DNA from: Erodium maritimum
Lineage: Eukaryota > Streptophyta > Magnoliopsida > Geraniales > Geraniaceae
NCBI GenBank assembly: GCA_963921825.1
Contig: OY997589.1
Coordinates: forward strand, 79,716,523-79,780,522
Direction: 5' to 3'
Length of the DNA stretch: 64,000 nt
Part shown: piece after piece, positions 7,671-63,540 of the stretch
Numbering within the stretch: position 1 is the first letter of the stretch
Layout: each line of letters opens with the position of its first letter
Made by a program: the position numbers and the translations under genes
The notes under the pieces: generated by a model
Told to the model about the DNA's origin: nothing
The model's input: the letters and a program-made list of their open reading frames with translations, nothing else
Databases searched by the model: none

Positions 7671-7811
7671 TATTGTAAATGATTTTTGCTGCCGTGTTCT
7701 ATTCATTGAGTCCTATCTTATACATGTGGTTTAGTATCCTAGATATACATGGATACAATTTTGAAATACAAATACAACTATTTCAAATACATGATATTAT
7801 CTTATCTAACA
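7671..7811 (-). repeat. 3' LTR of the Ale-like copia element
   Basis: 141 bp, near-identical to 12324-12464. On the minus strand it begins TGTTAGATAAGATAA and ends TTTACAATA. The exact end is fixed by the GTCAG duplication at 7666-7670. The stop codon of pol lies in the first bases of this LTR. Confidence 0.92.
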
Positions 7812-10800
7812 CTCTCCCTCAGTCAGAACGAGCGCTGGGCGAAAGTTCAGGCTGGACCGGAAATCATCGAAGAGAACCTTAGGTAGACCTTTGGTGAAAA
7901 TATCAGCCAACTGAGAACGAGAGGGAACATGAAGGACTCGAACCTGACCTCGGGCAACTTTCTCACGAACAAAATGAATGTCCATTTCAATATGCTTCGT
8001 ACGCTGGTGCTGAACTGGGTTCCCGGCAAGATAAATGGCGCTGACATTGTCGCAATAGATAATAGTAGCACGAGGAACCGGACAGTGAAGCTCAATGAGC
8101 AAATTGCGAAGCCAGCATGACTCAGGTACAACATTGGCAACACCACGATACTCAGCCTCAGTACTCGATCGGGACAACGTGGGTTGACGCTTCGATGACC
8201 AAGACAGAATATTATCTCCCATAAAAACACAATAGCCGAAAGTAGACCGGCGGGTGTCAGGACAACCACCCCAATCAGCATCGGTGAAGGCAGACAAAGA
8301 GTCGGAAGTCGAGCGATAGATGTGAAGACCCAAGTGCAATGTACCCTGAACATAGCGAAGCACCCTTTTAAGAGCACGGAAATGAGCCTCTCGAGGATCG
8401 TGCATGTGAAGACATAATTGCTGAACAACATAAGATAGATCTGGACGAGTGAACGTCAAATACTGCAAGGCACCGGCAAGGCTCCGATAGAGTGAAGGAT
8501 CAGGAACCGGCTCACCATCAGAGGCACTGAGCTTGGACTTGGTGTCAACTGGAGTCGCCGCAGGAGAGCAAGACGTCATGCCCACACGAGCCAAAATAGA
8601 TTCAGCATAGGTCCGTTGAGAGAGAAATAAGCCCGAAGACAAAGAAGACACCGCAATGCCCAGAAAGGAACTAAGGTGCCCCAAATCCTTCATAGCAAAC
8701 TCCTGATTAAGACGAGACATAACAGACAAGCGAAGCGCCTCGGTAGAGGTGGTGAGTATAATATCGTACACGTATAAAAGGATATAAGCAATGTCTGTAC
8801 CATGTTTATAAATGAATAAAGAATGATCAGAGGTGCTGTGTCGAAAACCAATTTTCTCCGCGTAATCCGTGAACCGTTGATACCATGCCCGAGGTGCCTG
8901 CTTTAGACCATAAATAGATTTCTTCAAGAGACAAACGTGGTCCGGAAGAGAAGTACTCCGAAAACCCAATGGTTGATGCATGTAGACCGTCTCCGATAAA
9001 TGTCCATGAAGAAACGTGTTCTTGACATCCAATTGGTGAATGGGCCAAGAACGAGAGACGGCAATACTGAGAACGGTACGAATAATGGAGGGCTTGACCA
9101 CCAGACTGAACGTCTCGTCACAATCAACTCCCACCTGCTGTGACCTGCCATCACCAACAAGACAAGCCTTATACCGCTCAAAAGAACCGTCAGCATGGCG
9201 TTTATGGCGAAAAATCCAAATACATCGAATAACATTGGTATTAGGAGGACGAGGGACCAAGGCCCACGTCCCATTACTAATAAGAGCAGAGTATTCGTCA
9301 ATCATGACCCTTTTCCAATTAGGATCAAGGAGTGCGGCTCGGGGGTTGGGTGGTAAAGGAGAGATACCTGAGGAAACAGACAAGTTAAAAAGTTGTTTAG
9401 GTCGAAGGATACCGCGCTTCCCACGAGTAGCCATGGGGTGAACGTTCCGAGGATCTACACGGGGAGGCAACGGTGCAGGAACAACCGAGGGAGCAGGAGT
9501 GGGGCAAGCCGGTGATGGGTTAGGTGTCGGTATGGGGTTGGTGTGGGGTTCGTCAAACAAAACAGGAGCATGGGTCAGTATAGGAGAAATAGGGGAGTCC
9601 AAAAATGAAAATGGGTCCGGGTTGGGTTTAGCTGGTGTAGAAAAAGGAAATATGGACTCATCAAAAAAAACATGCCGTGAGATAAGAATCTTACCCGTCG
9701 AGATGTCAAAACATTTGTACCCTCTGTGGTTGGAGGGGAACCCCAAGAAGACACAGGGAGTAGATCGCTGAGCGAGTTTATGAATAGTGCCTGGAGGAAA
9801 TAAAGGATAACACAAACAGCCAAAGACACGAAGATGATCATAAGTGGGATCACGATGATAAAGCACCTTAGTCGGAGTGATAAAATTCAAAGTGCGACTC
9901 GGAGTAATATTGAGCAAGTATGTGGCCATGGAAAGAGAATGATGCCAAAAATGTGCAGGAACCGAGGAATGACTCATGATGGATCGTATGACGTTATTAA
10001 TAGAATGAATCTTTCGTTCGGCACGACCATTTTGGGAGGACGTGTGGGGACACGAAAACCTGAAAACCATCCCGTTAGTGGAACAAAACTATTGAAAAGA
10101 ACGATTATCAATTTCTTTGCCATTATCACATTGAAAAGATTTAATTTTGCAACCGAATTGAGTGGAAACAAATGCACTAAAAGCAAGAAATACAGAGAAC
10201 ACCTGTGATTTAGCACTCAAAGGAAAAGTCCAAAGAAAATTTGAATAATCATCCAGAAAGAGCACATAATATTTATGACCAGAAGAACTCAAAATGGGAG
10301 ACGTCCAGAGATCACAATGAATAATGTCAAATGGGGATAATGTAGATGAAATAGAATCCATAAAAGGCAACCGGACTTGTTTACCATAAACACAAGCCGG
10401 ACAAACAAAGTCCAATGTTTTATTACATGAAATAGAGTTTTACGAGCAAATAGACCTAAAAACCGCAGGACAAGGATGGCCCAACCGACTATGCCAAATT
10501 GAGGACGAAATAGCAGCTAAAGCGACATGAGGTGATGAGTGTGACAACGAGGAAACGGGGTATAGATCCCCCGAACTATTGCATCGCATGATTGGGGTTC
10601 CCGTCTGTAAATCCTTCACAGAAAATCCACAAGGGTCAAATTCAACTGATACATGATTATCACAGACAAATCGACGAACATATATAAGATTTTTAACTAA
10701 CTTGGGGGCATGGAGTACATTATTTAAAACTAAAGGTGGATTCGGGTGAGGTAAAATTGCACGTCCTTGACCATGAATTGGAATTACGGAACCATTACCA

Positions 10801-20510: not shown

Positions 20511-21530
20511 TCCACCTAAAGTCTTATAAATAGGAAAGAGCTAAGTTAGAGAAGAAAAAAAAAAACTTGTTTTTAACATAACCTTAGAGCGGTAGAAGGT
20601 TGAGAGTGGAGATCCTTGAAGATTGAAGGAGGACCAACTTGGGCAAGAAATTTGTGAGAAGAGAGTGTTAGAATAGAAAGTTAGAGCTTCAATTCATCCT
20701 TTGTAATGTTACATTAGTATTATTTCTCCAACTCTTCAAATATAATGATTGTTCATTATTTCTTTTCTTCATCTTCTTTCTCTATGAATAGGTAAACTCC
20801 ATAATCTAGGGTTATGGGGGATTAGAGGTTTGAATTGCCATGTATTGAATGCATAATATTGTGAAAGATGAATCTAGGTTAAGGTTTATTATTGGTTTGC
20901 TCTTAATGCTCTATCTCCCGTATAGGCTTGATAGATGATGTGAATTAGGATCCAACACTCGAGAGATAAAGATCTTAATTAGTCTAAAATCAATAATAAG
21001 TCGGGTTTAAATCTAGGCTATGGATTAATAGGTTAACACAATTGCAATAACCATAGATTCGTATCGAAAGTTAGAAATTATCAAAGAACCTCGTGCTTTG
21101 GGTCTTCCTACACCTTTGATTTGGGAGAACTAGGTGGTTAGATTTCATTAGGGTCCGAAACATTCGGGAGAAGTTAGGACTAAGTTAGAGATAATTCGTT
21201 GCCCCTATAATAATCAAACTTCACAATAATTCTTGTTATTCAATATGTGGGAATGATCTCTATGAACTCATTCTCTGGATTATTTTTCTCTAATTCTAAT
21301 CTCTTATGATTTACCTGAATACTTGTTCACATTTTCGTTATTGTTAACTTTTTAAAACTCAAACCATCTTTTTAAGGAAACAGCTTAATAACACCTCATA
21401 TAGGAATTGTTTGTCTTGTACTCCTTTGGGTACGATATTCCGGAACTTAAAATTTCAAAAATACTACTTGACGACCGGTACGCTTATCACGTCCTTTTCT
21501 ACACTAAAACTGCATGACGTCATCAAGCTG
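20510..21530 (+). mobile_element. Athila/Tat-like gypsy LTR fragment
   Basis: From TATAAATAGG (20523-20532) to about 21530 the order of landmarks is the same as in the LTR at 50108-51872: TATA box, GGGTTTAAATCTAGGCTA-type block, CCTACACCTTTGATTTGG then AACTAGGTGGTTAG, GGGTCCGAAACATTCGGGAG, GGTACGATATTCCGG and ACTTGACGACCGGTACGCTT. It is diverged from those copies and no matching partner or internal region is adjacent. An old partial LTR. Confidence 0.5.
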
Positions 21531-22600
21531 TCGGCGCACATGGATTTTATTTCTCTTTACCACATTTTGTTCAAATAACTTGGTTATGTTGTTTTTTGTG
21601 ATTGGAATTCAAGTCATATCATTGAGATTATCATCCAATGTCAATCTTTCGTGGATCTAAAGTGCACATTTGCCCGTTATCAATCACTTTACAAGGAGAG
21701 TAAAACACACTCCATAGTGTGATGTTACAATGAGTTTTGCACAATGTGAAGTGGCTTTTCAAGTGTGAAAGTAGGAGCATATTGGAAAGGGAGAGAAAAG
21801 TAACACAAAAAGCCTTGAGTTATGGCCAAATGTGTCATGAAACAGGGGAGCTACTTAAAGGTTTGACAAATAACATGATATGAAGAATCTATTTTAGATC
21901 GTACATAAATGTGTGTAAGGTCAAAAGCCTAATCACATATTGATTGGGATCATCAACCATCAGTTGTTGACAAATCACTATCTCTTTTTACCTTTTTGCC
22001 CCCAAAATAAAAATAAAACTATACTGTACTAAGTTAGCTGAAGGAGAAGAAAATTCAACTAGTTTCGTTTTGAAATAGAAAATTTGACAAATAAAGTAAA
22101 AATATACTGATATATCAATATAAAAAAAAATACTATTTCTGTTTAATTTTTCTTGTAGGTCCTACCCATCAAAAATTTCTCCAGTATCCACTTAGTGGAT
22201 AAACTCCCCATGCATATTGCATGCGATGTAATAAAGCTAGACAATACAATTGAATTTCTGTCAGTTTTTTTTGGCTCAAATGATATAACACATTCGAAAG
22301 AGCTATATTTGATCGGACTTATTAAAATGTCTGGTGCTTCTCAAGCTATACAAGTTGAGATGATATAATTTAGTTAGTTGATGTAATTGAAACCAAATAA
22401 TTCTGCGGTAAAAATCACTCTTTTTTGTCTAAGGAAATTACCTATGTTGAACTTAGAGCTTGATATTGATATGTACAATGGTGGAGAAAATGTAAAAATG
22501 GGAGAAGGAGAGACAATTGTGAAATAAGTGGACAAAGGAAGAAAAATGGTTAATTTTTAAAAAGAGAATCCATTTAATAGTAGGAGACTACCCGGTATGC
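21531..22600. other. No gene seen
   Basis: AT-rich intergenic sequence. Long A and T runs near 22118-22130 and 22265-22275. I found no coding frame, TIR or LTR signature. Confidence 0.5.
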
Positions 22601-48100: not shown

Positions 48101-50107
48101 CGACAAGAACATCTAGGCATTAACAACTAACCGTGGGGTGAGTATGTTACAGATGATCTTAAAATTATTTATCAAGAGATGAGATCCTACCATAATGGAG
48201 TTTTTCTTGGACACCTAACACAATGGTATTTCTGAAAGGAGAAATTGTATCTTATTAGATATGGTACGATTGATGATGGGATTCACATATCTTCTAATCT
48301 TCCTATGGGGATATGCTTTGGAAGTTGCTTCATATTTGTTAAATAAGGTTCCCATTAAGGTAGTTGTTGAAACACCATATAAGATATTGAAAGGATGTAA
48401 ATTAAACCCCTAAACATTTGAAGGTATGGGGTTGTCCAACCTATATTAAGCGATTGCAATCAGACAAACTTGAGACGAAGTCTAAAAATTGTATATTTGT
48501 TAGTTATCCCAAGGAGACGATGGGATACTATTTCTATCACTCTTCTGAACACAAAGTGTTTGTGGCTAAGTGTGTGACCTTTATAGAAAATGAGTTCCTT
48601 GATGTAGGAAGTGTTGGAGTAAAAATAGATCTTGATGATATGCAAGATACCAATGAGTCAGCACTAGCTCATGAGCATGAGATGCATATTGAGCAATAAT
48701 TTCTTAATGTCTTTCCATTTGCACAAGGGTTCTTACCTCAAACGTCAAGGTAAATGAGTTGGTTATTGAATTAGGTCAAGAGCAAGGGAAACAATAAAAT
48801 TAAGATATAAAAGAGCCTCCTAGAAGATCTAGTAGAGAACGTCATGCAACAAATATGATGAATATATTAGTGTGAAATAATAAGGATACATATATTGATG
48901 ATGAGTTTATTATTGAAGACAGTCTTAAGTGTTCCTAAGATGCGATATAGATAGTCCAGACCATGAGAAATAGCTTGCTTCCATGGAATCTGAAATGGAG
49001 TCAATGAGAATCAATAAAATGTGGGATTTAGTTGATGACTTTAAGGTCTTAAAACCTATTGGGTGTAAATGTATTTTTAAGAGAAAGGTTGGAGCGGACT
49101 GGAAGGTTGAAAATTTTAAAGGCCGTCTAGTTGCTAAGGGGTATAATCAAAAGTAAGGTACTGCTATGATGAAACGTTCTCCCTAGTAGAAATGCTCAAA
49201 TATGTTTGAATTTTTATTGTTATCGTTGCAAACTATGATTATGAGATCTGGAAAGTGGATGTGAAAGCGGTTTTCCTTAATTGTGAGCTCAAGGAAGATG
49301 TCTATATGACTCAACCTGAAGGTTTAACATTGTCATCAACTCCTAGTAAAGTATGTAAGCTACAATGATCCATTTATAGATTAAAGTAAGCTTCTCGTAC
49401 TTGGAAAATTTGTTTTTACACGATAATCAAAAAGTTAGATTTTGTGTGTGATGATGAGGAGTCATGTGTGTATAAGAAGGTTATTGGGATCGTAGTTATT
49501 TTCCTAGTGCTATATGTAGATGACATATTGCTAGTAGGAAATGATGTACCAGTGCTATGCATGAGGTAAATGTTTGACTATTTGAGAATTTCTCCATGAA
49601 AGATATGGGAGAAGCAACTTATATTTTTGGAATACAAGTGTATAGAGATAGATCAAGAAAGTTAATTGAGATCTTCCAACCTATTGAAACTAGAGTTTTT
49701 CTTTCTGGGGGGGGGGATAGTCTTTAAGACCCTAGAGAAAATAAAATGCATGAATAGAATTTCATATGCTAACAAAGTGGAAGCTATCATGTATATCTCG
49801 GCATGTACGAGAATGAATGTTACATATGCGTTAAGAGTAGAAAGTAGTTACCAAAAAATTTCGGGGGAGTCACATTGGAAAGTTTTTAAATATATTCTTA
49901 AGTACTTGAGAAGAAATAAAGACCAATTCCTCATATATGGAGATAATAAGCATAAACTATTAGGTTGCACCGATGCAAGTTTTAAGTCAGACTAGGACAA
50001 TTAGAAAATCTACTTTTGGTTATGTTTTTACCTAGCCTGGTGGAATTGTGAGATGGAAGAGTTCCAAATAATCTACACTAACAAATTTAGTAACCGAAGT
50101 AGAATAC
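45190..50107 (+). mobile_element. Old Ty1/copia element (Tork-like), left portion
   Basis: gag from about 45190 (LINVIDNPTMKAPAEGV, SRTARYKISKFLFKSELK, a Cys-X2-Cys zinc-knuckle start), the protease motif LVLDTGSGFNICNKF at 46069, then, after an unassigned stretch, integrase end (NGISERRN-like, KVWGCPTYIKRLQSDKLE), RT (GCKCIFKRKVGADWK, LLYVDDILLVGN-like) and RNase H to TEVEY at 50107. The reading resumes at 63235 beyond the Athila-like complex, with AATAC on both sides. No 5' LTR was seen. Very decayed, many breaks. Oldest layer in this part of the window. Confidence 0.8.
46440..48120. other. Unassigned 1.7 kb inside the old copia element
   Basis: Lies between protease-side and integrase-side copia sequence, where about 0.6 kb of pol would be expected. 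It holds minus-strand frames (47938-47600, KKRRRFPVQVENVGLKFDVM; 46873-46475, MSELSFGKANVECSSVDQRI) with repeated VV-K-S/T phrases but no domain I know. Probably another inserted retroelement, perhaps a LINE-type ORF1 on the minus strand, but I found neither terminal repeats nor a target duplication. Confidence 0.35.
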
Positions 50108-51872
50108 TGATGTGAACGTAAAATTCATATATTCTAGATGTTTTAGCCCACATTTCTAAGCTTTTTAGTCCCGGGATTATGTGATTTAATGTAATTCTAT
50201 CTCTATTTATGTAATTGGTATCTTTTCAGGGGTATTTAGGAGTTTGATGCGAAATAAGGAGTTTTAGAGCTAAATGGAGCAAAAATACGCTTAAGAAATT
50301 TTGGAGTCTAGCTGATCTTGTGAAGGGCATAACTTTCGCATCTAAGCTCCGATTTTCGCCCGTTACACATAAAATCGAAGGGAATTAAAAGATGGGTTAA
50401 TTACATTCACCTACTCCGAACTATACACGTTTAACAGATACCTACCCCAAATAACGTATACATACCCCAAACTAACAGTTGTAACAACATACTCCATTCC
50501 ATCCATTTTTCCGTCCATATACCGTTTATTTTTTCAGAAATTCCGAAACTACTCGTAGTGTTGCAATCCTAAAACCACTTTCGACCCTAAATCTCTCTCC
50601 AAACCTAAATCTAACCCTTAAAATGGATGGAAAATGGATGAAAGGGGGGATATTGTTACAAAATGTTAGTTTGGGGTATGTATTCGTTATGAAATAACTT
50701 TGGAGTATTTATCCGTTAAACGTGTATAGTTCGGGGTATGTAGGCGTAATTAACCCTTAAAAGATCTAAAGCTTTGATGGAGGATTTGATGTTGAAAAAT
50801 ACACTGGTTATTTGCACGGCGTGCATCTAACCGTGCATATGGGACGGTGGCGCCAAAATTTCGAACATGTTATTTGCACCCTGTGTAAACGCCCAAAGAC
50901 GCGTTTTTCAGTCGAAATTCTCATTTTAATTAGTTTTTACCCTAGATATAAAAGGGGAATTAGGTCAGAACAGAGGGATCAGGAAATTGGAAAGAAAACA
51001 CATTGGTTCGAGAGCTTATGGGAGATTTTGGAGATTGAGAGACGTATCAAAGAGTCATGATTCGATTTTCTTCACTGTTTCCATCTTAACTGGTATTTGT
51101 ATCACACTTATCGTTTAGTATGGGTATTATTTATTTGATCTTCGTGTTGTGTTCTTATTCTAATATCATGAACTAAACTCCATTGATCTAAGACTAGGGG
51201 AACGATACGATGAATTAATTTAGCGTATTTCGGTTATACATTTATTAAACTAGTATCTAGGATATTCTTTATTTAATTCTTCTCTTAATGCTTTTGTCGC
51301 ATTGATCACATGATGTATGATTCAATTGTATTAACCAACAATTGAGAAATGAGGTTAATATGAGGAAATAGGAATTAAATAGCTCGGGTTTCAATCTAGA
51401 CTAGAATATAGTTAGACTGACACGAGTGTAATAATTGTAGGAGTAAAACCAAAAAGTTAGAGAAATTCGTAAACCTTAATGCTTGGTACCTTTCTACACC
51501 TAGATTAGAGATAATTAGGTGGTCAGAGTACGATAGGGTCCGAATGCGATCGAGAGATGGTTAGGACTAGTGATAGAGAATTCCCGTTGTCATTAGAGTA
51601 GTATTAGTTGCAAATGTAGACCGAAGCCGATAAGTTGTTCATCGTATTCAAACCCCAATGTCCTAGATCGCCTTTAAACTCTGATTTACGACCTACTTGT
51701 GATTATGTGCTTTATTCTCGGATCATTTATATTGCTTATTGTTTGCATGAAATTTTTACATTTTACAAAACAAAACCAATCATCGATATAGGAATAGCTT
51801 GACGAACGAATTAATTAATTAAAGTGCTTGTCTAATTGCACCCTTGGGTATGATATCTTGGACTAAACCCCG
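50108..51872 (+). repeat. Athila-like LTR, plus orientation
   Basis: Starts TGATGTGAACGTAAAATTC and carries GATATAAAAGGGG near 50944 (TATA), then CTAGATTAGAGATAATTAGG and GGTATGATATCTTGGACTAA blocks. It is an inverted copy of 51891-55860, less the Tekay-type solo LTR in that arm. Includes the MITE 50394-50756. Confidence 0.82.
50394..50756. mobile_element. Mutator-like MITE (363 bp)
   Basis: Inverted ends GGGTTAATTAC... with the shared block CGAACTATACACGTTTAAC (about 50 bp of TIR, a few mismatches), plus an inner pair CATACCCCAAAC / GTTTGGGGTATG. A perfect 9 bp duplication TTAAAAGAT lies at 50385-50393 and 50757-50765. Both other LTR copies lack this segment. No coding capacity. Confidence 0.9.
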
Positions 51873-51884
51873 GCAACGATGCCA
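51868..51884 (-). other. Primer-binding site at the inverted-LTR junction
   Basis: Minus strand TGGCATCGTTGCCGGGG, seven bases beyond the minus LTR end. It is the Athila/Tat-type primer site (commonly described as tRNA-Asp) and resembles 59126-59107. Its GGGG coincides with the CGGGG of the opposing plus LTR, so the two arms meet here. Confidence 0.75.
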
Positions 51885-52691
51885 TTAATTTGACACTCCA
51901 AGAATTAACTATGAGAATGACACGACAAGCATAATCGGGGTTTAGTCCGAGATATCGTACCCAAGAGAGCAATTAGACAAGCAATTTAATTAATTAATTC
52001 TTTCATCAAGATATTCCTATATCGATGATTGGTTTTGTTTTATAAAATGTAACAATTTCATGCAAACAGTAGGCAATATAAGTGATCCGAGAATAAAACA
52101 CAGAATCACAAGTAGGCTGTAAATCAGAGATTAAAGGCGATCTATGACATTAACGAGGTTTGAATACGATAAACAACTTATCGGGCTTCGGTCTACATTT
52201 ACAACTAATACTACTCTAAAGGCAACGAGAATTCTCTATCACTAGTCCTAACCATCTCTCGATCACATTAAGACCCTATCATACGCTGACCAACTAATTA
52301 TCTCTAATCTAGGTGTACAAAGGTACAAAGCATTAAGATTTACGAATTCCTCTAACTTTCGGGTTTTACTCCTATAGTTATTGCACTTGTGTCAGTATAA
52401 CTATATTTTAGTCTAGATTCACTCATGTCAGTCTAACTATGTCACACCCCAATTTCAGTGAACCGAACTCGGGACGCGAACATTTAAAATAATAAACACT
52501 TTGAAACCTTTTCCATTAATCACTTTAAATACCAGTTTAGTTCAACAAAATAATAATTACAACTCAAAATAAAACGTCCCACAAGCGGAAAAATTGTGAG
52601 GTATCCGTCGCTAGACTAAAAAGTAACCCGGCCTCCCGCCCCTAGCTCTTCAAGCTTCGGAAGCTCACCTAGTCCGACCTGCGACAAGTAC

Positions 52692-52729
52692 CTGTAGAAA
52701 AAGCAGCTAGGGGTGAGCGTTCGCTCACC
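52692..52729 (-). promoter_or_regulatory. Conserved LTR motif (variant) plus acceptor-like CAG/G
   Basis: Minus strand GGTGAGCGAACGCTCACCCC: a GTGAGCG/CGCTCAC hairpin, followed by GCTTTTTCTACAG/G ending at 52692. It lacks the TACT of the other copies but keeps the stem, CTCACCCC and acceptor. Confidence 0.4.
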
Positions 52730-52924
52730 ACCACGGATAACAGACTGACTACGACATAATTAGCAGACAAGCCGTTAACACCCCAACCGACCCAAAACCT
52801 GGAATACAATCCCCAAACTCAAGTAACTCAACTAACACACCACCCGTTACTTTCCTCAACAGACTCAACACTCGATAACGTAATGTAAACTCGACACAAC
52901 CATTTACAACCTCCTCCAAAGACA

Positions 52925-53022
52925 TGAACACGGATCAGGCTAGCCAAAGAATGCTCACAACCTGCCAAGACTCGAACACGGATCAGGCCAGCCAAAGAAT
53001 GCTCGTAACCTGCCGAATTCCA
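52925..53022. repeat. 49 bp tandem duplication in the solo LTR
   Basis: GAACACGGATCAGGCYAGCC begins copies at about 52926 and 52975, followed by AAAGAATGCTC and AACCTGCC in both. Confidence 0.85.
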
Positions 53023-53124
53023 CACCACTCCCCGACACGAAGTCGGGTTACTAACCTTGGGCAAACACAATCACAAGCAAGGTTCAACTAACAGTAAAAA
53101 GACCAATTCAACGCTCCACAGACA

Positions 53125-53298
53125 CTCATGGCCACTCAAGACTCCAACGGTAAAAACTCGGGTTCAACAACCCCACGGGCCCTCATGGCCTCCCAAGACA
53201 CACCAACAGCAACTCACGGGCTCAACAACCCCACGGAACTCATGGCCACCCAAGACACCAACAATAATACACGGGCTCTCATGGCCACCCAAGACATA
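53125..53298. repeat. Tandem array with CTCATGGCC units
   Basis: About four copies of a 40-57 bp unit built on CTCATGGCCACCCAAGACAC and AACAACCCCACGG. Unit length varies, so copies have gained or lost sub-blocks. Confidence 0.8.
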
Positions 53299-55860
53299 AA
53301 GTAAACAGTTAACCTCCAGGCATGGTCATATGCCTCCAGTAATTCTAATATCGCTAAGTTCTCTGTTCCTACGACACTACTAAGTGTCACATGCTTTCTC
53401 ATATTCGCTACATTCCCGTATCATGCCTTTCTAATATTCAAAGCTACTTAACCCACGACACCCCAGTGTCACATGCATTTCCACTGTTAACTTTCCCTAG
53501 CCAGGGCCGAGATCCGGCTACTTTTCCCTACCTCGTATATAACTCCAAAAGTGATCAAATAAGCCCCGGCGCGATCCCCGTCACTCGCCTAGTTTCCCTT
53601 TGCCTCGGTCCGCAACACGATCTAAAAGAGCACAGTTTTAAGGTACTTTAAACTCGCAGGAAATAAACTGGAATTTAATAAACTTAACGCCAAAACGTAA
53701 CCCCAACAATGTCGATCACTCCCAAACTTCCCAATTACTCGACATTGTCGATAAAGGACCCGTAAAGGCCCGATTCGCCCGACATGGCGAATCTGCCCGG
53801 GTTTTGTAAATGTCCTTCCGGGGCTCCAAAAATTCCCGTTTTCGTTTCTACGGTCTTAGAATAATTCAAGGATCCCAATGCACTTGACGGAATCGAATTC
53901 CGAGTCAACTAATTAACGTTTAAAGTTTCTAAAACCCGTTAATTACAACTTTTCCAATTTAATTCCAAATTTCGATTCGGTTATGGATAAATGGTCCGGG
54001 GAACGTTTTAAACCTCCCGAACACTAAACCCGAGCACCTGAGCATGTGGGCCCTACCCGGCCCAACTTGGCTGTGGGCCCTAGGGCTTAAATGGGTCCGG
54101 CCCACCATGGTGGTGGTCGGCCCTAGCTCCAGCCAGCCACCTCACATGGTGGCCAGCCACCCCCTAAGGTGGCCGGAGCTCCTGGTCGCCGGAAAAACGT
54201 CCCCCTTCACCTCCAAACGCCTCCAAAACGTGTCTAACAAACCCCCAACCTCAATACAACCCTAACTAATCATTTTTAACCAAACCCTAACATTTGAAAA
54301 TTAACAAATCGACGATCGGTTCGGTGCTTACCCAAGAGGAGAACGAGGGGAACTTGATTCCTCCTAGCCTTGAGATGATCCAATGGATGGATGACGTGAA
54401 TAGTGGCACCACAAACCTAGCTCCTCTCTTCTCTTCTTCTCCTTCTCTCTCTAACTCTCTTCTTTTTTTAATTTGCGAATTCTCTCTCTAAAACCCCCCC
54501 TTGGCCGAACCCTAATAGGCACCACCACTCATTTACCCCCAAAACTTAACACCACCACTTGTTTGACAAGTGGCAAGGTGGGTCCCACACACATTTTCCA
54601 ATCAGATTCGCGAAAATCGGACGTTTCGGGCCCCAAACGGGCACTTTTTCCCAAAAATTACGAAACTTGACGGGCTACAAGGAAACGGCTCAACTAAGAC
54701 CGCTGCGACGACGGCTAAGCTTTTTGGATCCAAAACGGTCCTCGAATGGACCAAAACGTCGCTCGGTTGACTTTTCCAGCGAAAAGTCAACTTTTCCCAA
54801 ATTGATCAGAAAGTTGCCCTGAGTCCCCCGGAACTCACTTTGGTTGATATCGGGGTCATCTTAAGTACGGTAATACCCTCGGGGTCGATTTAGGTTAAGT
54901 TAAGTGTTTGTGTTAAAATTTTTAAATTTTCTTGTTTTTCGCAGGTTTGACTGGCGTTGACCGGGAGTGGTTATTACAAACTATATTCTAGTCTAGATTG
55001 AAACCCGAGCTATTTAATTCCTACTTCCTCATATTAACCTCATTTCTCAATTGTTGGTTAATACAATTGAATCATACTTCACGTGATGAAGGCGACAAAG
55101 CATTAAGAGCAGAATTAAATAAAGAATATCCTAGATACTAGTTTAACAAATGTATAACCGAAATACGCTAAATTAATTCATCATATCATTCCCCTAGTCC
55201 TAGATCAATGAAGTTTAGTTCATGATATTCGAATAAGAACATAAAACGAAGATCAAATAAACAATACCCATAATAAACGATAAGTGTGATACAAATACTA
55301 TTTAAGATGGAAACAATGAAGAAAATCGAATGATGACTCTTTAATTCGTCTCCCCATCTCAAAAATCTCCGCTAAGCTCTAAAACCAATGTGTTCTCTCC
55401 AATTTCGTGATCCCTCTTTTCTAACCTAATTCCCCTTTTATATATAGGGTGAAAAACGTGTCTTTAGGCATTTGCACGGTCGTTTGCACGGGGTGTAAAT
55501 AACCGGTACAAAATTCTGGCACCTCTATCCCATATGCACGCCGTTCAAATAAACGGTGCATTTTTAAACATCAAATCATTCATAAAAGTTGTAGATCTTT
55601 GAATTCCTTCGATTTGATAAGTAACGGGAAAAAAACGGAGTTCGGATCCGAAAGTTATGCCCTTCACAAGACCTCGAGCTGAATTTTGCTCCATTTAGCT
55701 CTAAAACTCCTCATTTCACATCAAACTCTTATATACCCCTGAAAAGAGACCAATTACATAAATAGAGAGAGAAATACCTTAAATCACATAATCACGGGAC
55801 TAAAAAGCTTAGAAATGTGGTCTAAAACATCTAGAATAGATGCATTTTACGTTCACGTCA

Positions 55861-58800
55861 ACACCCCACACTTAAGCTTTTCCTGCCCGAGAAAATTAAA
55901 CTAAATAAAGAAATAAGATATGTCCTGGCTAAACCTCGAGGTTCTCAGGAGTCCGGGCCTCCTTTATTCAGACAATGAAACTAAAGATGCACGTGCAATG
56001 CATGATCCTAATACTAGTGCAACCTATGACTCAACTACATGATACATGCAAAAGTTCACAGAAAATTGGTAAATTATGAGCTTAAGCACACACATTGATC
56101 AAAAGGTTTTCTCATAGTTTTCACATGCTCAAAATTTCTTACACAACTCAAAAGAATGCATAAATCGATGAACATACCGCATGTGAAGCTACATGCAATT
56201 AAACTTACTCAATCTAGCTTACAAACCTTCTGCCAACTTAGATAAGTGTTCCTCTTTTCACTATACACAGATCTTAGAGATTCATAAGCAAACATTTTCA
56301 ATCCCCTCTCCACTAATTATTAGTAATTTAGGCAATCATAAATCACATAGGGCTTCAGTAAGGCTCATAATGACATGCTAAGCAAAGGGTGTGGTAAGGT
56401 ACATGAAAAGAAGCTCAACAAATACATATTGGCAAACATGCTTCAACTCACATTCCTGAAAGTGTATCTCTCGACCCATAACCCTCATTTGTGCACTAAA
56501 TACCCTTTTTACATCTCTACACCTTTTTTTTTATCCTTATACACATAAGTAAAAACAATTTTTTCCAATGACTTATAATGCCTTTTCTTTCTACCTGTGC
56601 TAATTCTCAGTCTTACCCCACATTTATTTTTTGCACAGAGGAAAATTGTAATTTTTTTTCTCTTTTTATCTTTTAGGGGGGAGGCCGAAAACAACAAATA
56701 TTACCATAAACCTGACACATTAGTAAAGAATTATTTCTCCAGTCATTTTATATCACATTCCCAACCTCCAACCACAATAACCACACTCAAGAAGCACCTT
56801 AGCCTAGAAGTGTGGGTTCAAATAAAACAATGGATATTTAAATGAAATGAATGGAACATTGGGTTGTAATATTCAGCCCAGCAACAAAAGGCCAAAGCTC
56901 AATAAAGGTGACTAATGGACAACCATATATGCATAGGTAGGAAATTTAGCACAAACGGTCCAATAATGGCCTATGATCATTTTCCTAACCACCTTATTCC
57001 TTATTTTTATTTCGCCTCGAGGGGGATATCTGTGAAGTTTTAGACTCGGGTTCTCATGCATAGGAATTAGAGGAACCAAACACATATCAAAGTAACTTCC
57101 CAGAATGAAAACAAACGAGCATGCCTTACTACTTGTGCTTACACAAGCCAATTCATTCATACCTAATCGATGCACTCTTTTGAATTATGCAAGAAAAATG
57201 AGCATGTTTAACATTCCAATCATCGAATCCTTGAAATCATGTGTATTAAGCTTAATAAAACACCATAAATTTTTTTTTGAAATTTTTTAAACACAATGAT
57301 GCATGAAGCACACAATGCAAACACACTAAGATCTATGATCTCCCACCCCACACTTAAAACCTTGCACTGTCGTCAGTGAGACTCAATCCTAAACTTGCTC
57401 CTAACCAAATACAAGCAACCCCACACTTATGTAGAACAATCAAGCAATTCAGAAAACTAAGATGTATAACCTATCATCCCAACAAGTTGGGTGCTTAACA
57501 CCCACCAGAAAAACATCAAAGTTCACAAGTAGATACTAAACATAATAAACAATAGAGGGATAGAGATACTGCCCCTTCACCGGTACTACTTTTCCTAAAT
57601 ACTGGAAATTGCCTTTGTGCATGGTAGATGGAATACTACTCTGCCCAAGTGAGTTCTCGAGAACTTGGCGCCAACAAATATAACTTTAACCCTCAAATTT
57701 CCATCATGTATCACCAACTTGCACAAATAATAAAAAAATAGCAAGATTAAACATATACAAACGACGAGGGGTAGGGATATTGAGTTGTTTCCCAACAAGC
57801 GCATGTGTTTAGCGTCATTAGCTCGACGGGAATGATGCTCAATCAGGAGGCCTCCCACAAATCGCATACTTCCATTGCGTCATTCTCTTTAAATGTGAGT
57901 GCAAAAGTGAGAGAAGAAACGCAATGTAGCACAATATTCTTTCCCCGAGTTTTGTAAAAGTTCCAAACTCAAGGCTAACTTCATCAAGCTTGCCTTAACA
58001 GAATAATTATGGTTTGGTTCATCTTGGCTCAACTTGATAGGTATATGAAGCCCATGAATCGAAAAATACTCATGACAATAAGGATCAAGAGCATCTACCA
58101 TAATAGAGTAAACTAATCTAACAAACGGGGAATGTGGACTAGAAAATATATCAACAAATTCATGCTTAATATTAACAACTTTGTGGTCAACATTTAATTT
58201 AAAAATCAATGGGACGGGTTGAACATATAAAGTTGATTTGCTAGAATAAAAAAATGAATCACCCACACTAAATAAAATTTTCATTATCGATGTCTAGTAA
58301 AATAAATTCAATGAGAGATTCAAATATAACTCCTCTCTTGAGAGCATCTTCCATAGTACCCATTGGATATCTAATAGACCTGTCAGCCAACTCTACAGAT
58401 ACTATGAGAGGATTTGGCTAAACAAGAGTTTGTGAACTACTTTCTACAACTATACAATCATTATTTACATATACATAATTCAAAGCATCAAAACTACATG
58501 GAGATGACAAAGATATTATACAAGAGGGATCAGACCTTGATACCCTCACATTCCACACTTACCTCTAAACTCATGGTGAGATAATGAGTTTCTTGTTCTG
58601 TTGTGTCACCTAAGTGCCCGGAAAGATCTTCCTCAACGTGGATTGCTTGATCGTGTAGAGACTTCTCATTCACCGCTTGTATGAGAGGATTTATTTGATC
58701 TTCAAGCTTTTGAAACCGCTTATTCATGTTTTCATTTGTTTTTCTCATAGTTTCAATCATTATTGTCCTCCATTCTTTGTCTTCCTTATTCATCTCCATC

Positions 58801-59132
58801 ATTTGGTTCATGAGAGTAACACACATTTTCTCGAGTGACGACTCCTCGCCATGGGACAATTGTGGTTCAACTTGTTAACCTTGATCAAAAGTGGAAGTGT
58901 CCTCCCAATATTGACAATAGGCATTTGAATGTAAGTACTCACAATTGTAGTTAGCATGATCATAAGCTCCACAAAAATAACAATACATAATATCACAATA
59001 CCAATTCTCCATAAAAGTTAAAATGCAATAAATCAACTAAACAAATATATTAAAAAAATGAAATAGTCTTAACATGAAATATAAATATATCAGAGTTACC
59101 TTAGTTGCTCCCCAGCAACGACGCCATTAACT
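55861..59132 (-). pseudogene. Internal region of the Athila/Tat-like element
   Basis: Minus strand. Near the primer-binding site a gag-type CCHC zinc knuckle is visible, CYFCGAYDHANYNC (58982-58941), followed by a helical, charged segment (58859-58530; MMEMNKEDKEWRTIMIETMR). A frame at 58284-57889 (KPTLYVQPVP-like opening, ...FVDIFSSPHSPFVRLVYSIM) and one with a hydrophobic stretch at 57867-57595 follow; I cannot name either. No protease, RT or integrase was found in 3.3 kb. The rest (57300-55861) appears non-coding. Broken or non-autonomous. Confidence 0.6.
59107..59126 (-). other. Primer-binding site of the Athila/Tat-like element
   Basis: Minus strand TGGCGTCGTTGCTGGGGAGC, six bases after the LTR end GAGTGTCA. 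Typical for Athila/Tat-type gypsy elements. Confidence 0.82.
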
Positions 59133-61980
59133 TGACACTCCGAGAATTGACTCTCAGAATGGCATGACAAGCGTATGGGTCGTCAAGTAGTATTCGGGGT
59201 TTAGTCCAAGATATCGTACCCAAGGGAGCAATTAAGCAATCACTTTAGTTAATTAATTCGTTACTCAAGCTATTCCTATAACGATGATTGGTTTTGATTT
59301 GTAAAAATGTAATTTCATACAAACAATGAGATTATATGAATGATCCGAAAATAGAGCACAATGTCACAAATGGATTGTAAATCAGAGAATTAAGGTGATC
59401 TAGGGCATGAACGGGGTTCGAGTGTGATGAACAACTTAACAGAGTTCAGTATATATTTGCAACTAATATTATTCTAAGGGCAACGAGAATTCTCTAAGTA
59501 TAATCCTAACCATCTCTCGATCGTATTAGGACCCTAACATACTCAGTCCACCTAATTATCTCTAATCTAGGTGTAGAGCGGTATATAGCATTACAATCTA
59601 TGAATTCCTCTGACTTTCGGGTTTTACACCTATACCTATTGCACTCGTGTCAGTCCAACCATATTCTAGCCTAGATTGAAACCCGAGCTATTTAATTTCT
59701 TTTTCCTCTTCTTAACCTCATTTCTCAATTGTTGGTTAACAACATTAAATCATACATGTACGTGATGAGGGCAATGTAGCATTACAAACGGAATTAAATA
59801 AACATTTTCCTAGATATTAGTTGGCAAATGTACACACGAATATGTTAACTTATCAATTCATCACATCATTCCACTAACCCTAGATCGATATGGATTTAGT
59901 TCATAGCAAAAGAATAAGAACACAAGGAATTGATTGAACCACTGAAATTCATATTTATCAATAAGAATAATTCAATTGTCAAGTTTGAATCCAAAATACA
60001 CAAAACTTTTGATGTTCTAATATATCTGCTTTTGATCTTCTCTCCAAGTCTCTAGTTCTGATTTTTGCTCCCAAAATGTGATACCCCTTTTATATGAGGT
60101 AAAAATAATAATAAAACACAGTGTAAAGACCGTCTCAATTAAAATAATTAAATTATTACTTTTATCTACTTGAAACGTCATGGTAAAAAAATCGGGTTGG
60201 AAATTGGATCGAGTGCAAAAGAAAAAAAAAGGGGTAGAGTTGGACTGGACCAGACTGACAAGGCCCGGTCAGAGACCAGGCCCAAGCCAGGCTGAGCCAA
60301 GCCCACTTCGTGAAGTCAGGCCCATCACTCACGCGGTCCAACCCTACGCGAGCTTACCCTCGCTCGCGGCGCTTCAGTTCGCATTCGCACGCACGCCGAC
60401 CGAGGCACGTCTTCAACCTCTTGCCCTTTCTCTCTCGTGAACCAGTTCGCCGACGACGACTTCCCAACCTCTGCCTTCTTCTCCTTCTTCTTCTACGTTC
60501 ACCCACGACCATCCCTCACCATACCAGACGATCTAAACCCTTAATTTCCCTCTTCCTTCCCTTCTTCTTCCTCGAACCGAAGCAAAACCCTAGCCGCCCT
60601 CTTCGATCCAAGCTCCGCCGCGCCTTCAACAGTAGAAATCAGCCACGGTGAGCCTCGTCTCGAGATGATTCACCTTCCCCGCTACCCTTCATCTGAAAAT
60701 CAAGAGTCTTCGAGCTCATTTTGAGATAGGTCTGACCTGAGAGGAACGTCGTAGAGGAACGCCTCCAAATTTGGCATTTCCCACGCCGGCGAGCCTCTAA
60801 CGCCACCAGATCTGGACGGAGACACCCGGGGTTCACTCCAGCGACCTTCCCCCGTCTTCCCCTCGCCACCTGACGCCGTCCACCGCCCTTCGACGCCGGA
60901 ACCCTCGCCAGAGATACATAAAGCTCAGGCACGAGCCTGGGAAGAGCTTTGGGCCAGGATGGTTGGGCCAGGACGGTTGGGCTTTGGGCCGGGAAGGCTA
61001 GTGGGCCAGAGTGGCCTGGATCAGGACGGACCACTAGGCTAGGCCCAGGACGCGGGTCTGGAGCGGATTCTGGGTCGAGTCTGAAGCCGGGTCCGGGTCG
61101 GCTCTAGGTCCGATCGGCTCTGGTTCTAGACGGGGTCGGATCCGTGTTGGATTCAGGTCTGTTTCTTGGATCCGGGTCAGATCCGGGTCGGGCTTTAATT
61201 AATTAATTAATTTAATTATTATTTGGACTAAAATCAGATAACTCAAGGACTTATCAGTTAAATTAAAAGACGAACTTGTTAATTTAGAGGACTGCTCTAT
61301 CTGGACCGGGACTGATATTGAACCTTACCTGTTAAACCCAGACTTGGACTTCGCCCGAGAAGACCGGAGTTAGGCCCGGACGTCAGCAGCTTGGAGACGT
61401 AGCTGTCGATTCTTATTGAGGTAGGGAAAAGTACTAAACTCATCTGATAATTTAAATAACGCTAATAGTATGCCTATAGGGTGATAATAACCGGAAAGGT
61501 CCTAGATTGCATATAGGATGTGATTCACTAGAATAACCGTTTTTCAATTATAGTAATAACCGGACGAATCCTAGTATGCATATAGGATGTGATTCACTAG
61601 TTAACCGCTTTCAATATCTTGGTAAATTGCCGTGCTGGTAGAATGGCCATGTCGAGCCTTAGGACTTTCTTGTTGATTATTTATATTGTTGATTGTTCGC
61701 CCTTGAGGTCGTTTCATGCTCCATTCTTAAGATAGGTTAAGACTCAAACTAGATTAACTGAAATATGATGATTGTGATGTGAACGGTTGTTTCGTGCTAT
61801 GATGGATTGATTGAATGAACGTTGAGTGTGAATTGGTTGTGACTTTGGTTATGATCGGGTGAGTGATAGACCGATGAGACCCCGTTGTGCGTTAAAATGG
61901 TAAGCTTGATCTGCTATGGTGTGTGTGACTGTGTTACGTGTGTTATGCTTTCGGGTGTTTCGAGTGTGCACCCCGAGGGG

Positions 61981-62165
61981 GTAGTCCGGGAAGATACCTA
62001 GGCCGATGTGCGGTTCCAGTATGGTATATGATTATAGACCCCGTTGTGCGTTATCGGGAAGACTTCTAGGCCGATGTGCGTTTCCGGTATGGCGTGTGAC
62101 TGTTCACTCCGAGAGGGTAGTCCGGGAAGATATCTAGGCCGATGTGCGTTTCCGGTACGAAATGT
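61981..62165. repeat. Tandem array in the solo LTR, three copies
   Basis: CGGGAAGAYWYCTAGGCCGA followed by TGTGCG(T/G)TTCC occurs three times, at about 61987, 62058 and 62123, with related spacers. Confidence 0.85.
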
Positions 62166-62541
62166 TGCGGGTTACTGGTTTTGTCCCGATGATTGTGGTC
62201 CTTTGGAGTCATTTCCGGGATCTCCGACGATACGCATTCTGAGGGAATGCTTCGGGAAGTTCTGACGGCATGTGTCTCCTCTGGACCGAGGGGCAATCTG
62301 ATATGATGTACCGATCAGTGTACGAATCAGGGTCATGGGTTGATATTTATCATTTCGGTATTTGTGTGCTTCTTTAATTTAATTATTTCCTCGTTACACT
62401 TGTTATCTCTGCATTGCTATCCCTTAGTGTTACCTTTTCTAAATTATTATGATTCTTGTATTTCTTATTTAATTTCTGTTGGTTACATGTATTAATCGGT
62501 TTTACTGTTAAAACGGGGGTCTCTTAATCTTATTTCTTTTT

Positions 62542-62598
62542 CCTACTGAGCGAAAGCTCACCCCCCCCCCCCCCTTCGTGTTTATTGTTGTTTTACAG
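62542..62598 (+). promoter_or_regulatory. Conserved LTR motif plus acceptor-like CAG/G
   Basis: CCTACTGAGCGAAAGCTCAC at 62542-62561, a run of C, then TGTTGTTTTACAG/G ending at 62598. Same layout as in the other Tekay-type LTRs. Confidence 0.5.
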
Positions 62599-63234
62599 GT
62601 TTCTTTGTTGAGTAGACTGTAGGACGTCTCAGGGCTCGGGAGCTCACTGAGGGTCTAGGAGTTATCTTGTTAGAGACGTATTGGTTTACATTAACTTTAT
62701 TTCCTGTAAATTTTAGAGCGGTTGACTCTTGACTTTGGGTTTATTTAAACTATGATTGTGGAGTTTACATTATTAAAGCTTTTCTTTTATTATTTATTTA
62801 TCGTTTTTAGTTCACGTCTCGAGTCCGGCCAAAACCGGATTTGGGGCGTGACACACATGAATCGCAGCTGAAAGCGCGTCTCTGGGACCTTTGCACGGTC
62901 ACTTGCACGCTATGCATTTCCCAGTGCATCTTTAGTTGCACAACGTGCAACTACCTGGTGCATTTTTCTAGCGCTTTTGTTCCAGAACGCACCGGTTAGA
63001 TGCACGTCGTGCAAATAACTAGTGCATTTTACTGGCACTTCTGCCCAACTTCCAATTTGCTCTGTTTCGCTCCCGAATTGCCCTTTTTTGTTCCAAATGT
63101 TTGGCGAACCCTGAAATAGGACCAATTGCACAGAATGAGAGTAAAATGCATCAACTTATACTGACTTTGGACTAAAAAAGAACGTAAATGTGGGCTAATG
63201 ACATCTAAAATAGATGTATTTTATGTCCACATCA

Positions 63235-63540
63235 AATACCTAGATGCATGTGACGCTGATAAGGAAGTTGTGTGAATAAGGAAGTTCTTAACTAATCTTG
63301 GTGTGGTTCTTTCAGTAAGGAAGGAGCCAATGAGCCAAGAGCACATCGGGAATCCAAATATGTTCTTCGGAAGTTTCTTCTGATTAGAGAAATAGTTGAA
63401 CATGGAGAGGTCCAAATTATGAAGGTCGAAGAAAAGGAAAACATTGTATATCCTTTCACTAAATCACTTGGTTCAGAGGAGTTTGACAAGCATAAATGGA
63501 ATACAAGGTTGAAGTTCATGAATGGTTGGCTCTAGGTTAA
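63235..63540 (+). pseudogene. Old copia element, end of RNase H
   Basis: Continues the copia reading broken off at 50107: LDACDADKE, then NEPRAHRESKYVLRKFLLIR, EHGEVQIMKVEEKENIV and KSLGSEEFDKHKW, the 'H.R.KHI....H.IRE.V..G.V....V....N.AD..TK.L' pattern. The repeated AATAC at 63235 marks the target duplication of the complex in between. Broken. Confidence 0.8.

Follow-up and report, generated by a model that had tools for sequence, protein, structure and literature searches.

A palindromic LTR retrotransposon insertion with U3 at both borders in Erodium maritimum, probably derived from aberrant reverse transcription

How can a retrotransposon insertion come to carry the start of a long terminal repeat (LTR) at both of its borders? 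The question is raised by a 13 kb insertion (50108-63234) in a stretch of 64,000 nucleotides of the Erodium maritimum genome (assembly GCA_963921825.1, contig OY997589.1, positions 79,716,523 to 79,780,522 of the forward strand), hereafter the window, in whose coordinates all features are given. Here, we describe the anatomy of this insertion, which derives from an LTR retrotransposon and has no detectable pol, and argue that the locus is probably one integrated product of aberrant reverse transcription, in which a plus strand would have read through the tRNA primer, copied a strong-stop DNA backwards and yielded a complementary DNA (cDNA) with U3 at both ends that was then integrated.

The left border reads AATAC followed directly by TGATGTGAACG (50103-50118), and the right border, read inward from 63234, is TGATGTGGACA, with AATAC at 63235-63239; both of the LTR starts in the original prediction, and the perfect AATAC duplication that it placed around them, are thereby confirmed. 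This 5-bp target-site duplication (TSD; left copy at 50103-50107, right copy at 63235-63239) flanks the whole complex, and two unrelated borders would match at 5 of 5 positions with a chance of about 0.001 at the local base composition. When the flanks are rejoined with a single AATAC, tblastn gives a 55-aa alignment (E 7e-4) to the copia open reading frame (ORF) of the window at 7806-10088, and this alignment spans the junction in frame (LVTEVEY/LDACDADKE, with the slash at the junction). When the two flanks are left unjoined, tblastn lists no such alignment at E up to 1e-3. The TSD, the in-frame empty site and the precision of the borders support one insertion of DNA with LTR starts at both ends, as had been proposed. 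Since an ordinary element, or an inversion within one, retains an LTR end at one border, U3 at both borders is a property of the inserted DNA. The target had been described as continuous copia RNase H coding sequence, and its flanks do rejoin in frame, with the RNase H and C-terminal region continued on the plus strand at 63240-63540 (flank-joining tblastn), but the coding sequence is decayed: it has stop codons inside the 55-aa junction alignment, and a further alignment, which lies in a different frame (21% identity, E 4e-4), spans the rejoined junction as well. The 760-aa open copia ORF at 7806-10088 (minus strand) is better preserved than the copia target at 48-50 kb, and its element is perhaps the younger of the two.

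The insertion contains three LTR copies: LTR+ (50108-51872, plus strand), LTR1 (51891-55860, minus strand) and LTR2 (59133-63234, minus strand). Along the minus strand from 63234, the order is LTR2, a 6-nt spacer, an 18-nt primer-binding site (PBS), the interior, a tract resembling a polypurine tract (PPT), LTR1, a 6-nt spacer, a 17-nt second PBS and LTR+. LTR2, the 5' LTR, is a divergent version that starts TGATGTGGAC and ends GGAGTGTCA, and LTR1, the 3' LTR, starts TGACGTGAAC and has the same end, GGAGTGTCA. The element's PBS is TGGCGTCGTTGCTGGGGA (59109-59126, minus strand; pattern search and sequence), and the PPT-like sequence AAGTGTGGGGTGT (55861-55873, minus strand; by eye) adjoins the start of LTR1. 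The segment LTR2-PBS-interior-PPT-LTR1 thus shows what generally characterises an LTR retrotransposon, namely an LTR pair, PBS, PPT, TG...CA ends and a TSD. LTR+, defined by alignment and by its inverted-repeat arms with LTR1, is an inverted third LTR with the order U3-R-U5, whose U3 start forms the outer border and whose U5 lacks the last 45 nt.

At 51.87 kb, the sequence turns inside the second PBS, TGGCATCGTTGCCGGGG (51868-51884, minus strand), which stands outside the 3' LTR, and the PBS complement occupies the place of the 45 nt absent from the U5 end of LTR+. LTR+ and LTR1 form the arms of a palindrome around an unpaired centre of 63 nt (51873-51935), composed of 12 nt of PBS, the 6-nt spacer and the 45-nt U5 end of LTR1. 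At the turn lies a microhomology, CCCCG (51868-51872), common to U5 and the PBS complement, which we read as the switch point and which would occur at a random junction with a chance of about 0.005. At its other end, LTR+ terminates exactly at the U3 start, that is, at the 5' end of plus-strand strong-stop DNA. A PBS pattern allowing up to 3 mismatches has 2 matches in the 64 kb vs 0.02 expected, an expectation that is a guide only, the pattern having been adapted from the window itself; one of the two matches is the site outside the 3' LTR, ending at the turn. Ordinary elements have no PBS outside the 3' LTR, and one is expected there when the plus strand copies a tRNA primer that has not been removed; we read the second PBS as such a copy. 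CCCCG and CGGGG also form a short inverted repeat on which the strand could fold (z -1.08, unremarkable), and because a self-priming U5-PBS hairpin is possible but without unusual stability, we do not claim an intramolecular snap-back.

These features would be accounted for if the growing plus strand had passed LTR1 and the spacer into a tRNA-Asp-type primer that had not yet been removed, 17 nt of which it copied as the second PBS. Its 3' end, CGGGG, would then have paired with CCCCG within U5 of a sense DNA of LTR length, the likely candidate being plus-strand strong-stop DNA (5'-U3-R-U5-PBS-3'), and this template would have been copied backwards until run-off at its 5' end produced the exact U3 start. 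The resulting cDNA would have had U3 at either end, and integrase would have placed it in the copia element with a normal 5-bp duplication. For human immunodeficiency virus 1 (HIV-1), one account states that strong-stop DNA includes a copy of 18 nt of the tRNA, and that the second transfer may take place between molecules; its model treats the strands displaced in this way as lost (PMC5651808). Of the mechanisms originally offered, the best fit is a template switch in reverse transcription, given a turn at the end of the second PBS and an inverted LTR whose terminus is exactly that of plus-strand strong-stop DNA; the joining of two cDNAs would fit only if the second were an LTR-long piece. We infer the order of events, with the plus strand leaving the tRNA, annealing to strong-stop DNA and running off, from a copied template that starts in U5 and ends at the U3 start; a single copy fits either a strand switch during synthesis or a later joining by repair.

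Both LTRs of a normal insertion are identical at birth. At this locus LTR+ and LTR1 differ at 131 of 1320 aligned sites (10%), with 10 indel events, and at 1183 three-way sites, counted in five non-overlapping segments (A to E), private substitutions number 242 in LTR2, 50 in LTR+ and 47 in LTR1. For R and U5 only (721 sites) the counts are 105, 23 and 28, respectively, and equal rates are rejected (chi-square 81.3, p 2e-18); the private rate of LTR2 is 0.30 in U3/TATA vs 0.15 in R/U5. Gap columns, mostly in U3, were dropped (97, 119, 55, 13 and 11 in segments A to E), and their loss probably understates the divergence of LTR2. The outer pair, LTR+ and LTR2, is alike at 396 of 478 U5 sites and at 143 of 242 sites in the first U3 piece. 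The test originally proposed, in which similar ages of the three LTRs would support one event, is passed by LTR+ and LTR1, which are alike, but not by LTR2, which is more diverged from both. The closeness of LTR+ to LTR1 and the divergence of LTR2 suggest a second template lineage in the particle, and a likely extension of the proposed mechanism is that the plus-strand transfer making LTR2 would have been intermolecular, from a second, divergent co-packaged element. In that case, the element's own strong-stop DNA would have gone unused, and would have been displaced and available as a template. We hold it possible but doubtful that this is a recurrent side path, in which a two-genome particle and an intermolecular plus-strand transfer would leave displaced orphan strong-stop DNA to be copied by a tRNA-read-through plus strand, with the U3/U3 cDNA then accepted by integrase.

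Several points weigh against reading the locus as such a reverse-transcription product. The tRNA copy is 17 nt, one short of the standard 18, and is followed by T and not A, so the final A is missing or was removed. The integrases of human T-cell leukemia virus 1 (HTLV-1), HIV-1 and simian immunodeficiency virus (SIV) favour U5 over U3 ends, according to one study (PMC6705210), and because the retroviral integrases tested favour U5, the claim that two U3 ends were accepted needs more examples. The evidence comes from one locus and consists of sequence only. A second template has to be added to account for the divergence of LTR2; compared with the other copies, LTR2 shows no significant concentration of its excess in U3 (p 0.16; 0.09 with overlapping pieces), and the indel-rich U3 segment B (99 sites) is near-equal, with 15 private substitutions in LTR+, 8 in LTR1 and 17 in LTR2 (7, 10 and 23, respectively, under other cuts giving 108 sites). 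An outgroup, the LTR at 20.9-21.5 kb, agrees at 56 sites with LTR2 in 20 cases, with LTR+/LTR1 in 21 and with neither in 15, an even split that favours neither a separate lineage nor gene conversion. This related LTR-like stretch (20880-21540; 69% over 209 nt) has the motif CTACTTGACGACC before its LTR end, in common with LTR2 and not with LTR1.

Inverted repeats that lie close together readily undergo conversion, and for the divergence of LTR2, and for this alone, it is a real possibility that all three LTRs were identical at insertion, that LTR+ and LTR1 were later homogenised by gene conversion between the palindrome arms, and that LTR2 is simply old. The differences between LTR+ and LTR1 are unevenly spread over the length of the LTR (p 0.004), conversion may have missed segment B, and the lack of significance of the regional contrast in U3 also suits this explanation. 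However, the other 4 of 5 segments set LTR2 strongly apart, the longest identical run between LTR+ and LTR1 (53 nt, p 0.36) is not unusual, and LTR2 would have to be very old for part of an insert whose TSD is still perfect.

For the palindrome itself, an unlikely explanation is end joining before integration, in which a cDNA with a tRNA-copy tail would have been joined tail-to-tail via CCCCG to a separate LTR-long duplex (double-stranded strong-stop DNA). The 5-nt microhomology suits such a joining, and the U3/U3 product and the TSD would be identical, but one partner would have lost about 68 nt (45 nt of U5, 6 nt of spacer and 17 nt of PBS) and the other none, and the same unusual LTR-long DNA would still be required, plus repair enzymes acting on it. 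A DNA-primed start is distinctly less plausible: a truncated sense LTR DNA ending in CCCCG would have annealed to the PBS of the RNA in place of the tRNA, and LTR+ would be that primer. The turn would then fall within the PBS as it does, and such a minus strand would have had no strong-stop transfer of its own, forcing a foreign LTR2, but the primer would have to be truncated at random 45 nt inside U5 and to anneal through a 5-nt match, and the position at PBS nt 17 of 18 becomes a coincidence. Very unlikely is a rearrangement after integration, the inversion or fold-back duplication of one LTR in an ordinary element, which the original prediction had named as the alternative that kept the border. 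The CCCCG/CGGGG repeat does offer a foldable strand, of unremarkable stability as noted above, but the left border of an ordinary element would be an LTR end and not a start, fold-back copying is not expected to halt at the U3 start beside AATAC, and a PBS outside the 3' LTR is foreign to an ordinary element. Although palindromes are a known artefact type, a chimera of the assembly or of a read (a palindromic read) is extremely unlikely, as the arms differ at the 131 sites and 10 indel events given above and each has a different nested insertion, flanked by a TSD of its own (363 bp in LTR+, 2539 bp in LTR1). The palindrome is old. Two further candidates were rejected, namely a later nested insertion of LTR+, whose U5 is truncated and whose inner end lacks a separate TSD, and run-off on the element's own continuous plus strand, for which a stop at U3 is not expected.

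Complex insertions with three LTRs and a 5-bp TSD are described in Triticeae, rice and maize, where they are attributed to an abnormal reverse-transcription switch with two co-packaged RNAs (Sabot and Schulman, 2007; PMC1950507). Among the arrangements compared, these template-switching complexes are the nearest to the present locus, and they share with it three LTRs in one insertion and a flanking 5-bp TSD. In them, two complete core sequences enclose an internal LTR and the outer LTRs are highly similar, whereas the present insertion shows neither of these, and has one interior, an inverted third LTR at the border, a PBS copy at the turn and U3 at both outer ends. The intermolecular second transfer of HIV-1 (PMC5651808) likewise gives a cDNA with LTRs from different templates and displaced strands; those strands are lost in the HIV-1 model, whereas at this locus one such strand seems to have served as a template and to have been retained. 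Tandem plant LTR retrotransposons also have three LTRs and a single 5-nt direct repeat around the insertion, but they contain two internal regions, in one case with three 99%-identical LTRs, and an inverted LTR is not mentioned in the accessible part of that report (PMC11899658). The complex types in the corresponding part of a further report are of the LTR-IN-LTR-IN-LTR kind (PMC5379124). Among the titles and abstract openings listed for openly licensed PMC papers, none describes a third LTR that is inverted and has a PBS where the sequence turns, which does not prove that such a description is absent.

The 3.2 kb interior (55861-59108, minus strand) has no recognised retroelement domain. None of its 10 minus-strand ORFs of at least 50 aa (19 ORFs on both strands) reaches the Pfam cut-off, and tblastn of the interior with four retroelement ORFs of the window gives nothing at E up to 1. 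No reverse transcriptase or integrase of the Athila/Tat clade was found in the interior, where a heavily decayed remnant could escape detection. Right after the PBS, a short ORF (58875-59036, minus strand) shows a CCHC-type zinc-knuckle pattern (CYFCGAYDHANYNC) by eye and has no Pfam match, and next to it lies a 114-aa ORF rich in M, E, K and N (58530-58874, minus strand) whose Pfam matches are all below cut-off; a search for its relatives in viral contigs gave 3 pattern matches, none confirmed by tblastn. The presence of LTRs and priming signals with no recognisable pol fits a large non-autonomous LTR derivative. Both PBSs are of what we take to be the tRNA-Asp type, which we also assume to link the element to Athila/Tat (Ty3/gypsy). 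PBS type is the one feature in favour of the Athila/Tat-like name first given to the insertion, and the interior yielded no classifiable protein. A tRNA gene scan of the window (bacterial code) found none. In the literature, the PBS string occurs in a printed peanut sequence that holds the motif, and the accessible part of that source mentions neither tRNA, PBS nor Athila. Exact LTR patterns had 0 matches in viral contigs and 0 in the genome contigs searched.

Each LTR copy carries a nested insert. The one in LTR+ resembles a miniature inverted-repeat transposable element (MITE), is 363 bp long (50394-50756) and absent from LTR1, and has terminal inverted repeats of 58 nt (83% complementary) and a 9-bp TSD, TTAAAAGAT, by whose size it resembles Mutator-like elements (MULEs). 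The insert in LTR1 (2539 bp; 52440-54978, plus strand) runs from TGTCAC to ATTACA with the TSD AACTA on each side and is perhaps a solo LTR, as a candidate assignment; around its site, LTR1 shows by eye a local tandem duplication of about 36 nt (52380-52439 with 54979-55000). The insert in LTR2 (2.7 kb; 60122-62853, minus strand) runs from TGTCACGCCCC to TTTACA with an imperfect TSD, ATGTG/CTGTG, a 4 of 5 match placed by eye, an exact-TSD scan for this insert having found none. The inserts in LTR1 and LTR2 have similar ends (TGTCACRCCCC ... TTACA) and lie in different LTR copies at different positions, and because they share only short matches (best E 0.004), a common family is unsupported.

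If the proposed origin is true, this locus records three steps that are normally invisible: read-through into the distal tRNA primer, the use of strong-stop DNA as a template, and the integration of a U3/U3 cDNA. The signature of such an event would be an LTR, a spacer, a PBS of 17-18 nt, a short microhomology and an inverted LTR ending at U3, followed by the TSD. This signature is easily scanned for in any long-read genome, and the frequency of the event is therefore countable. Dating by LTR pairs would fail for such insertions. Along with this, if the recurrent side path also proves true, palindromic LTR-PBS-LTR insertions would be fossils marking heterozygous particles.

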